Assembly (NCBI GenBank): GCA_001295865.1
Contig: LJHW01000001.1
Span: 186,001 to 250,000, forward strand
Source: a beta proteobacterium AAP65
Lineage (GTDB): Bacteria; Pseudomonadota; Gammaproteobacteria; Burkholderiales; Burkholderiaceae_C
DNA length: 64,000 nt
Reading direction: 5' to 3'
Shown one piece after another: positions 4,251 through 45,422 of the stretch (positions are counted from its first letter, which is position 1; every line of letters begins with the position of its first letter). The notes beneath the pieces are model-generated. The model was not told the DNA's origin. It searched no databases and was given only the letters and a program-made list of their open reading frames with translations. The translations under genes and the position numbers were made by a program.

Positions 4251-5003
4251 ATGCTTCAAGTCTTCGAACCGCCGCCGGCCGTGCCGACCATGGCCGCCGT
4301 GATGGCCCGCGCTGTCGCCGATGACAGCCGTGAGCGCACCGAGCGCCCCGGCCGCGAGACACCGCACCCGAGCATCTGGATGCTGGGCATGCTCGACGAG
4401 ATCGACTACGGCATGCTGCTCGTCAGCGCCGATGCGCAGGTCAGCTACCTGAACCACGCCGCGCGCCTGGAGCTCGACGGTGAGCACCCGCTGCAGCTGC
4501 TCGGCAGCACCCTGCGTGCGCACCGCGCGCAGGACGTGGCGCCGCTGTACGACGCGCTGGCCGCCGCACAGCGCGGGCTGCGCCGCCTGGTGACGCTGGG
4601 CGAAGGCACGCAGCGGGTGTGTGTTTCGGTGGTGCCGCTGCCCGGCCCCACGGCCAGCGGCCACACCGACCCCGCCCGCGCCACGCTGCTGGTGCTGGGC
4701 AAACGCCAGGTCTGCGAGCAGCTCTCGGTGCAGGGCTACGCGCGCAGCGTGGGCCTGACGCCGGCCGAGACGCGCGTGCTCGAACAGCTCTGCGCCGGCG
4801 CCCGCCCGGGTGATGTGGCGGCCCGCGCTGGCGTGGCGGTGTCCACTGTGCGCACGCAGATCGGCAGCATCCGCACCAAAACCGGCGCTGGCAGCATCCG
4901 CGAGCTGGTGCGCCAGGTGGCGGTGCTGCCGCCGCTGGTGGGGGCGCTGCGCGGGCTGGGGGGCCTGGGCGGCGCGGGTGGGTCGGCCGGGGCGCGCCGC
5001 TAA
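4251..5003 (+). CDS. PAS/LuxR-type transcriptional regulator
   Basis: 250 aa. A PAS-like segment spans about 40-130 (DEIDYGMLLVSADAQVSYLNHAA is its start), followed by a LuxR/GerE DNA-binding domain from about 165 (LTPAETRVLEQLCAG, STVRTQIGSIRTKTG). The ATG at 4251 follows AGGGGG at 4241-4246, a plausible ribosome binding site; a longer reading would run back through the intergenic palindrome. It is the second of two tandem LuxR-type paralogues and lies 42 bp ahead of a Crp/Fnr regulator, so three regulators stand in a row. The C-terminus is a Gly/Ala-rich tail without predicted function. Confidence 0.75.
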   Translation: MLQVFEPPPAVPTMAAVMARAVADDSRERTERPGRETPHPSIWMLGMLDEIDYGMLLVSADAQVSYLNHAARLELDGEHPLQLLGSTLRAHRAQDVAPLYDALAAAQRGLRRLVTLGEGTQRVCVSVVPLPGPTASGHTDPARATLLVLGKRQVCEQLSVQGYARSVGLTPAETRVLEQLCAGARPGDVAARAGVAVSTVRTQIGSIRTKTGAGSIRELVRQVAVLPPLVGALRGLGGLGGAGGSAGARR

Positions 5004-41314: not shown

Positions 41315-41420
41315 GCCAGCGCTGTCGGCGCCGGGCTGCGCAACTGGGGATGCCCCGGCTGCCCGCCCGCGCCCTGGCGTGCACACTGCCTGTTCCCCTG
41401 AACAGCCTGTGCCCACCACC

Positions 41421-42425
41421 ATGACACGTCGCCGCCACCTGCTTGCCGCCGCCTCTGCCCTGCCGCTGGGGCTGGCGATGAGCCGTTTTGCCCACGCCCA
41501 AGGCGCCTGGCCCAGCAAGCCCGTGCGCATCGTCGTGCCCTTCGCGGCCGGCGGCACCACAGACATCCTGGCCCGCGCCATCGCGCCCGAGCTGCAGCGC
41601 GTCTTCGGCCAGCCTTTCGTCGTCGACAACAAACCCGGCGCCGGTGGCAACAACGGTTCGGCCGAGGTGGCCAAGGCCGCGGCCGACGGCCACACCTTCC
41701 TGATGGGCACGGTGGGCACGCACGCGATCAACCCGTCGCTGTACCCGAAGATGCCGTATGACGCGGTGAAAGACTTCGCGCCCGTCACGCTGGTGGCCGG
41801 CGTGCCCAACGTGCTGGTCTTCAACCCCGAATCGGCGCAGAAGTACAAGATCAACTCGGTGGTCGACCTCATCCGCGCGGCCAAGGCCAACCCGGGCAAG
41901 CTCAACGTGGCGAGTTCGGGCAACGGCACCAGCATCCACCTGGCGGCCGAGCTCTTCAAGAGCCTGACCGGCACCTTCATGCTGCACCTGCCCTACCGCG
42001 GCAGCGGCCCGGCGCTCATCGACCTGATGGCCGGCAACGTCGACCTGATGTTCGACAACCTGCCCAGCGCCATGCCGCACATCAAGAGCGGCCGCCTCAA
42101 GGCCCTGGCCGTCACCAGCGGCGTGCGCTCGGCGGCCTTGCCCGATCTGCCGACCATCGCCGAAGCCGGCGGCTCGCTGCTGCGCAACTACGAAGCGAGC
42201 TCGTGGTTCGGCCTGCTGGCGCCTGCCGGCACACCGGCCGACATCGTCAACCGCGTGCAGCAGGAGACCGCCAAGGCCCTGGCCACGCCGGCCATCAAAG
42301 ACCGGCTGCAGTCGCAAGGCGCCATTCCCAGCGGCATGAGCCCGGCCGATTTCGCGAAGTTCATCGGCGCCGAGACCAAGAAGTGGGCGGTGGTGGTCAA
42401 GGCCTCGGGCGCGAAGGTGGACTGA
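41421..42425 (+). CDS. Bug/TctC-type periplasmic substrate-binding protein
   Basis: 334 aa. Twin-Arg-like signal ([20 protein letters not shown], cleavage near AHAQ). Family motifs: [80 protein letters not shown]. These proteins bind carboxylic acids for tripartite tricarboxylate transporters, and Burkholderiales carry many orphan copies. No tctA/tctB gene is next to it, so it is an orphan. The ligand cannot be read from the sequence. Confidence 0.92.
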
Positions 42426-45228: not shown

Positions 45229-45247
45229 GCCGGCCTCCAAGGCCGGC
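45229..45247. terminator. Bidirectional terminator-like hairpin
   Basis: GCCGGCCT (45229-45236), loop CCA, AGGCCGGC (45240-45247): a perfect 8-bp stem between the flavoprotein stop (45222) and the stop of the convergent small ORF (45260). There is no U tract, but both transcripts would run into it. Confidence 0.6.
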
Positions 45248-45259
45248 CGCAGCCTCAGC

Positions 45260-45343
45260 TCAGAACCAAGCCCACACGCGCCACAGCCACTGGGGCAGGC
45301 GCACGCTGTCGGGGCGGTAGTGCTGGCGCAGGGCTTGGCGCAT
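45260..45343 (-). CDS. 27-aa cationic Trp-rich peptide under LexA boxes (putative SOS peptide)
   Basis: 27 codons, ATG 45343 to TGA 45260. The N-terminal half is basic (five Arg, one Asp in the whole peptide); the C-terminus is LPQWLWRVWAWF with four Trp in eight residues, so it is amphipathic and membrane-seeking. AGAGG lies 7 nt before the ATG, a good ribosome binding site. Upstream are a promoter-like region and two perfect CTGT-N8-ACAG boxes at 45389-45422. It is monocistronic and ends before a strong hairpin. Size, charge and SOS control recall TisB and DinQ of E. coli, but no sequence similarity is claimed. It is short, so chance cannot be excluded; the ordered promoter, ribosome binding site, ORF and terminator layout argues for a real gene. 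Confidence 0.55.
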   Translation of the reverse strand: MRQALRQHYRPDSVRLPQWLWRVWAWF

Positions 45344-45388
45344 GACGGGACCTCTCAGGAGCAGATGGAAGAAAGCGACTGAGAAGAA

Positions 45389-45404
45389 CTGTATACGCAC
45401 ACAG
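45389..45404. promoter_or_regulatory. LexA box 1
   Basis: CTGTATACGCACACAG, a perfect match to CTGT-N8-ACAG, the LexA box of gamma- and betaproteobacteria. On the minus strand it covers the -10-like TATACA (45395-45390) of the small-ORF promoter. Confidence 0.75.
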
Positions 45405-45416
45405 TACTGTGTGCAA
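45390..45416 (-). promoter_or_regulatory. Sigma-70-like promoter of the small ORF
   Basis: Minus strand: TTGCAC (45416-45411) and TATACA (45395-45390), spacing 15; shifting the -35 by one base to CTTGCA gives 16. Both elements lie inside the LexA boxes, so LexA binding would exclude polymerase. The predicted start near 45383 gives a leader of about 40 nt to the ATG at 45343. Confidence 0.45.
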
Positions 45417-45422
45417 GAACAG
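45407..45422. promoter_or_regulatory. LexA box 2
   Basis: CTGTGTGCAAGAACAG, a second perfect CTGT-N8-ACAG, two bases from box 1. Between them runs the 18-bp palindrome GCACACAGTACTGTGTGC (45397-45414). It covers the -35-like element of the small-ORF promoter. Tandem boxes usually mean tight, late SOS induction. Confidence 0.75.

Follow-up and report, generated by a model that had tools for sequence, protein, structure and literature searches.

Introduction

Which gene do two adjacent LexA-type boxes serve when no larger gene is placed to be their target? In the window, by which we mean the whole 64-kb stretch of DNA analyzed here, such a pair lies ahead of a minus-strand frame of only 27 codons, which an earlier sequence-only reading had taken for an undescribed peptide laid out like TisB and DinQ. 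SOS-induced small proteins are already a known kind, SidA, TisB, DinQ, DinI/ImpC and DdrR among them. Here we ask whether the frame is a gene, whether LexA controls it and what its product might do. We conclude that it encodes a likely new damage-induced peptide, because two exact boxes precede it and because its relatives keep the same tail and box motif at mostly unrelated places in the genome.

Results

A stand-alone frame behind two exact boxes

Reading the minus strand from 45422 to 45260 returned a box, two bases, a second box, 45 nt, an ATG, 27 codons and a stop, followed by a hairpin (Table 1). The elements named in the sequence-only reading were thus all confirmed: two perfect CTGT-N8-ACAG boxes two bases apart, AGAGG with a 7-nt spacer, a 27-codon frame whose product has five arginines, and an 8-bp hairpin after the frame, although this hairpin has no T-run behind it and the terminator scan returned 0 terminators. 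The statement that no larger gene is suitably placed for the boxes was equally sound. Upstream, and in the same orientation, comes the 3' end of aceE (PDH_E1_M, PF17831); the downstream neighbor is a convergent FAD amine oxidoreductase. Because this next gene is convergent, the frame cannot be its leader peptide, and we rejected that reading for the window.

Table 1. Features of the peptide locus, in coordinates of the window
Feature	Position	Strand	Remarks
LexA-type box 1, CTGTTCTTGCACACAG on minus	45407..45422		exact CTGT-N8-ACAG; overlaps putative -35
LexA-type box 2, CTGTGTGCGTATACAG on minus	45389..45404		exact CTGT-N8-ACAG; overlaps putative -10
Putative promoter core TTG-N20-TACAG	45389..45416	-	-35 TTGCAC, 17-nt spacer, -10 TACAGT to 45388
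AGAGG ribosome-binding site	45351..45355	-	7 nt before ATG
27-codon peptide gene, MRQALRQHYRPDSVRLPQWLWRVWAWF + stop	45260..45343	-	ORF read, family membership, pN/pS
8-bp hairpin GCCGGCCT-TGG-AGGCCGGC, possible transcription end	45229..45247	-	no T-run

The boxes had also been said to lie over a promoter-like region, and this description held in part: the TTG-N20-TACAG core is present and common in the family described below, but a strict sigma-70 consensus scan found 0 promoters and left the putative TTGCAC/TACAGT pair unscored. As both hexamers sit inside the boxes, bound LexA would cover the two of them.

Exact CTGT-N8-ACAG sites occur four times in the window against 0.75 expected, a count reached in 0 of 100 shuffles. 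Across the whole genome (4.84 Mb in 95 contigs, 99.99% complete) there are 18 exact sites, compared with five matches to the reversed pattern. The genome's own lexA and recA boxes, CTGGATAAAAATACAG and CTGGATATGCGTACAG, agree with the pattern at 7/8 positions each, fewer than the two exact boxes of the peptide. Two more frames of this genome, judged by their sequences to be ImuA-like (RecA-like) and radical-SAM-like, are also boxed.

The two further exact sites of the window have GC-rich middles. That at 41390-41405 immediately precedes the gene of a TctC-type receptor (41409-42425, plus strand); it is unlike the other boxes in this respect and may be a chance match. That at 4312-4327 is probably one. 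Separately, a near-ideal box, CTGTATATTTATACAG, was noticed near the end of a contig, ahead of a long minus-strand frame (L006, G000:C5:53831).

Box and frame are kept together across the family

What the sequence-only reading had proposed looking for in relatives, a frame conserved along with its boxes and a coding-type pattern of substitution, was found in both respects. We assembled 115 distinct cores after removal of duplicates, the window's own included, each with 150 bp of upstream sequence; members scored at least 20 bits (nine of them below 28 bits) and ended within one residue of a stop codon. A box matching at least 7/8 positions lay within the upstream 150 bp in 107 of the 115, compared with 52 of 2,000 control windows drawn from the same loci, and an exact box in 92 of 115, compared with 5 of 2,000. 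The TTG-N20-TACAG core was found in 73 members and in none of the 2,000 controls. One locus with less than 150 nt upstream (L140) was left out of one box count.

Since a stop-proximal end was required for entry, ending at the stop is partly a product of selection in this set. In a set chosen without this requirement (n = 51), 45 frames ended at the stop and 40 of these 45 had a box, compared with 0 of the 6 others; likewise, the first 30 loci fetched all ended the frame at the same motif residue and all had an upstream LexA-like box. The nearest box stood 18 to 45 nt from the start codon in 87 of 106 boxed members, with a median of 23 nt. Among the eight members without a near box, seven are immediately preceded, on the same strand, by the small gene that we call ORF1 (see below); five of them have a box of at least 7/8 farther upstream, no more than 500 bp from the peptide core. 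In the remaining member (L077/L211), an exact box was found 176 bp upstream.

Of 140 flanks, each up to 1.5 kb long, 91 resembled no other flank in the set. The flanking genes are thus mostly unshared, and shared flanks cannot account for the conservation of the boxes. A pN/pS of 0.33, from 34 independent nearest pairs among 74 members, is the coding-type pattern of a peptide family that, judged by its substitutions, is under purifying selection, though not extreme. A frame that arose by chance, with boxes that serve nothing, might have been suspected from its small size and from the absence of a strict sigma-70 match, but the joint retention of frame, motif and box together with this selection leaves that reading hardly any probability. 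We consider the locus almost certainly a LexA-controlled coding gene; sequence alone could hardly make the case for LexA firmer.

The family is restricted to one clade

When 100 genomes were searched with the single peptide, 43 of the 59 genus genomes examined besides its own gave matches at E <= 0.03. A 28-member profile matched 53 of the 81 genus genomes at E <= 0.01, and 52 were counted after we dropped G049, whose match (E 6e-4) lies inside an 861-aa frame. At the family level 57 of 399 genomes matched at E <= 0.001, of which 56 were counted; the match dropped, in G504, neither ends at a stop nor has a box. At the order level 13 of 399 genomes matched at E <= 0.01, and full-length, high-scoring matches were confined to the window's genome and G323. 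The 12 other order-level loci were set aside as noise, with scores of 21.1 bits or less and no end at a stop except in L049, which has no LexA-like box (best 5/8). As the peptide was detected in 52 of 81 genomes of the genus and 56 of 399 of the family, it is no universal checkpoint.

A degenerate DNA pattern run over 84,980 species genomes picked out 57 stretches. Carriers with a genus name were Rubrivivax, Rhizobacter, Azohydromonas, Aquabacterium, Ideonella, Inhella and Piscinibacter, and the remainder were labeled more broadly as Burkholderiales, Betaproteobacteria or uncultured bacterium. The family thus appears clade-restricted, its named carriers being Burkholderiales of the Rubrivivax/Rhizobacter/Ideonella type. 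The peptide of Rubrivivax rivuli has 26 of 27 residues in common with the window's, whose DNA thus probably belongs to a relative of Rubrivivax. Two copies of the gene were seen in each of G059, G024 and G677 and three in G521; all three G521 copies and one of those in G677 directly follow ORF1.

As far as the libraries searched go, the peptide was rightly called undescribed: no named family was found for it in Pfam, NCBIfam, PADLOC or PHROGs. In a protein database 194 proteins matched at E <= 1, and the readable names among the 120 listed were all "hypothetical protein". Viral contigs held no confirmed relative, and phage and plasmid records gave no match at E <= 1. A sub-threshold Pfam hit to Mso1_Sec1_bdg (E 0.033) and the one PDB sequence match (E 1.7) were taken as chance. 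In open-licence PMC, no description of the family was found in the titles and abstract openings among the matches listed.

A basic peptide with a predicted interfacial tail

After a variable start, the family consensus reads L-R-Q-H-Y-R-P-x-x-x-R-x-P-x-W-L-R-R-[IVL]-W-x-W-[FL]-stop. P17 is unchanged in all 115 members, W24 and W26 in 112 each and W19 in 110, and Y9 and P11 are kept in at least 102 and at least 101, lower bounds owing to indels in a few members. The core has a median net charge of +5, and its last nine residues have a median sum of -6.0 on an interface scale; the tail is predicted to be strongly interface-seeking. Its amphipathicity is modest, with 13.6% of shuffles of the last nine residues reaching the observed hydrophobic moment on average. 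An AlphaFold2 model of a 32-aa relative placed a helix at residues 23-31 with a pLDDT of about 83, in a model of low overall confidence (mean pLDDT 69.4, pTM 0.25). Neither the SulA profile (PF03846) nor the DinI family models of Pfam and NCBIfam matched the peptide.

A spanning helix usually has a Kyte-Doolittle mean of 1.6 or more. The highest 19-residue mean within the 22-residue core had a median of -0.66 and a maximum of 0.42 over the 115 cores, and no membrane-spanning segment was predicted in any of them. These values weigh against the idea that the peptide is an SOS toxin like TisB or DinQ, one that would depolarize the membrane, be kept in check by an antisense RNA and make persisters. 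Such a toxin would be of the same size class as DinQ and, like it, under LexA (PMC3567139), and the positive core and Trp-rich tail would suit it. But the start codon follows so soon on the nearest box that little leader is left for a TisB-type standby site, Rfam gave no match around the peptide gene (an unknown sRNA would escape this search), and the conserved Tyr, Pro and Trp residues suggest a specific partner rather than a pore. The copy of TisB and DinQ that the sequence-only reading had seen in the layout is therefore not supported, and because the spanning helix that defines such toxins was looked for and not predicted, we regard this reading as improbable.

The first half of the peptide raises another thought, namely that Y-R-P-x-P-x-R-x-P enters the ribosome tunnel in the manner of a proline-rich antimicrobial peptide and slows translation after damage. 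Its spacing of Tyr, Pro and Arg resembles that of class I proline-rich peptides, but we give the idea very little credence.

A second small protein, ORF1, often accompanies the peptide

ORF1 was found beside the peptide gene in 36 of 85 evaluable loci, downstream in 29 and upstream in 7, and was missing from the other 49; for 30 of the 115 members there was too little downstream sequence to judge. A leader-peptide reading is unlikely for these 49, their downstream genes being annotated in part. ORF1 proteins have 58 to 96 residues, typically 60 to 75, follow the pattern MNAPLLPEVL...LPLAxEGVxRYVWESRFGxMLIEVxxGxxYVNGxxVEP and, in 30 of 36 rows, carry a net negative charge, as low as -7. No fitting family, and no DinI match, was found for three ORF1 proteins in Pfam and NCBIfam, whereas 1,084 database proteins matched ORF1 at E <= 0.001; phages, plasmids and viral contigs had none. 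AlphaFold2 gave three beta strands at moderate confidence (pLDDT 67.8), and since a fold search of the PDB was empty at E <= 0.001 (best E 1.1), we claim no fold. ORF1 is thus a second unnamed small-protein family, mostly under LexA-type boxes (loci L217-L245 and L246-L273). The sequence-only reading mentions neither this partner nor the umuDC link described below, nor that the peptide family is limited to a clade. Strongly diverged peptide frames of the RFRPTRPAPAWLQRVWSWF type, below the score threshold, were noticed just upstream of ORF1 in L257 and L265 (G762 and G697).

ORF1 is carried by 27 of 81 genus genomes; in the window's genome, which has none, the peptide gene stands alone. Within the genus the peptide was present in 25 of 27 genomes with ORF1 compared with 27 of 54 without (Fisher p 1.5e-4, kinship ignored), and within the family in 22 of 39 compared with 34 of 360 (p 3e-11, kinship again ignored), G049 and G504 being excluded from these counts. 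They stand side by side in 18 of the 25 genus genomes in which both occur. Boxes matching 7/8 positions or more lay within 400 bp upstream of 27 of 29 genus ORF1 loci, and 9 of the 11 ORF1 loci without a nearby peptide gene were boxed, the exceptions being L241 and L243.

A toxin-antitoxin pair, with a basic peptide set against an acidic partner and LexA as the switch, would fit the opposite charges, the close spacing and the occurrence of both gene orders. It fits poorly with the 27 of 52 peptide-bearing genus genomes, the window's among them, that have no ORF1, and with the frequency at which ORF1 is found alone. We think it very unlikely.

Operons headed by the peptide or by ORF1

In three genomes (G038, G846 and G011; loci L274, L275 and L276), a box, the peptide, ORF1, umuD and umuC follow one another in one direction. 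Pfam was run on one UmuD, one UmuC, one YhcG and one DUF5710 example, and the umuD and umuC genes of G011, in this genome only, were confirmed by Peptidase_S24 and IMS domains. These are the only genomes with a umuD-like gene beside the peptide, although others may go unseen where the locus spans some 3 kb or less; in the window the peptide does not head a umuD-umuC operon. Without the peptide, ORF1 precedes umuD in six further loci, of which five (L224, L225, L232, L233 and L244) have a LexA-like box and L254 has none, and a umuC-like frame follows umuD in all three of these six that were extended. ORF1 without the peptide also precedes a YhcG-type (YhcG/DUF1016) nuclease in four loci, and DUF5710 genes follow ORF1 in others, L257 among them. 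In single loci ORF1 stands before genes that we take, by their sequences, for a UvrD-type helicase and a methyltransferase, and before others. As it precedes umuD, YhcG and other genes, ORF1 seems often to open operons under LexA control, with the peptide a common companion.

The three-genome arrangement favors a reading in which the peptide and ORF1 are accessories of SOS mutagenesis that adjust the timing of the error-prone polymerase, binding for this purpose to the RecA filament, to UmuD or UmuC, or to the sliding clamp. It has a precedent in impCAB, where the DinI-like ImpC may act likewise. The ORF1-umuD loci without the peptide and the co-occurrence of the two families point the same way. 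Against this stand the many evaluable members with no ORF1 beside them, the restriction of the umuD-like neighbor to three genomes and the variety of other genes that ORF1 precedes (nuclease, helicase, methyltransferase and DUF5710 genes), so that adjacency may mean only a shared LexA promoter. Nor is a motif of the QLxLF type, which binds the clamp, conserved. An accessory role in mutagenesis is, in our judgment, somewhat unlikely, and ranks second after the reading that we prefer.

A wider possibility, which we entertain tentatively, is that the two families make up a new two-part SOS module, in which a Trp-tailed micropeptide and a small beta-strand protein, under their own boxes or in a joint operon and in either order, stand before umuDC, a YhcG nuclease or a UvrD-type helicase. 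They would then act as a shared effector unlike SulA, SidA, TisB or DinI.

Discussion

The reading that we prefer, and offer with reserve, is that the gene encodes a likely SOS-induced micropeptide that would attach to the inner membrane from the cytoplasmic side and hold back division or growth during DNA repair; the braking mechanism, taken by itself, we hold a little more loosely. On this proposal, RecA filaments would make LexA cleave itself, the promoter would open and the peptide would be made. Its last nine residues, of the W-L-R-R-I-W-x-W-F type, are predicted to form a short cationic Trp-rich helix resting in the membrane interface without spanning it, and it is this interface-seeking tail that suggests a location at the membrane surface. 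The extended stretch R-Q-H-Y-R-P-x3-R-x-P, in which Tyr and Pro are highly conserved, would bind one specific partner; because specific residues are conserved, a single protein (or RNA) target seems a better candidate than general membrane damage. By analogy with FtsW for Caulobacter SidA, the partner could be a component of the division or envelope machinery.

A brake at the time of damage is suggested by the SOS context, by the peptide gene standing alone in the window and by the near absence of SulA from the genus, where its profile (PF03846) passed the cut-off in 2 of 81 genomes, the window's not among them. With SulA so rare, the peptide becomes a direct candidate for the factor that stops division during damage. 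The proposed brake must be set against several observations: the peptide is detected in only part of the genus and family genomes, the amphipathicity of its tail is modest, the structural model is of low overall confidence, SidA is transmembrane whereas the peptide is not predicted to be, and the umuD-umuC operon that the peptide heads in three genomes points to mutagenesis rather than division. The umuDC link thus yields a second prediction, on mutagenesis.

Despite how well the SOS response has been studied, two conserved small-protein families under LexA-type boxes have stayed unnamed in the libraries searched, perhaps since annotation often skips genes this short. Four known systems come closest. 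SidA of Caulobacter crescentus is described as a 29-aa SOS-induced division inhibitor of the inner membrane that binds FtsW/FtsN (PMC4211646). It resembles the present gene as a tiny stand-alone peptide gene under LexA, a control assigned here from sequence, and differs, in a comparison by description only, in being transmembrane where the present peptide ends in a charged, Trp-rich segment about nine residues long and is not predicted to span the membrane. DinQ of Escherichia coli has 27 aa and a single transmembrane segment, is controlled by LexA and is paired with the antisense RNA agrB; DinQ and TisB are both described as type I toxins under LexA (PMC3567139). Size and LexA control are shared with them; the present family differs in that no transmembrane segment was predicted and no antisense RNA or structured leader was found in the Rfam search, and in having strongly conserved Tyr, Pro and Trp residues and, in many genomes, a protein partner.

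The impCAB genes, umuDC homologues with LexA sites in which ImpC is similar to DinI (PMC12211044), offer the likeness of a small protein under LexA that heads an operon of the umuD-umuC type, a place taken here by the peptide in three genomes. They differ in that neither the peptide nor ORF1 matches the DinI models of Pfam and NCBIfam, and in that a umuDC link of the peptide was seen here in those three genomes only. DdrR of Acinetobacter, compared by description only, is a small co-repressor acting with UmuDAb (PMC11332147), whereas the window's genome has LexA itself; what the two have in common is that a small protein of the damage response is genetically linked to a gene of the UmuD type.
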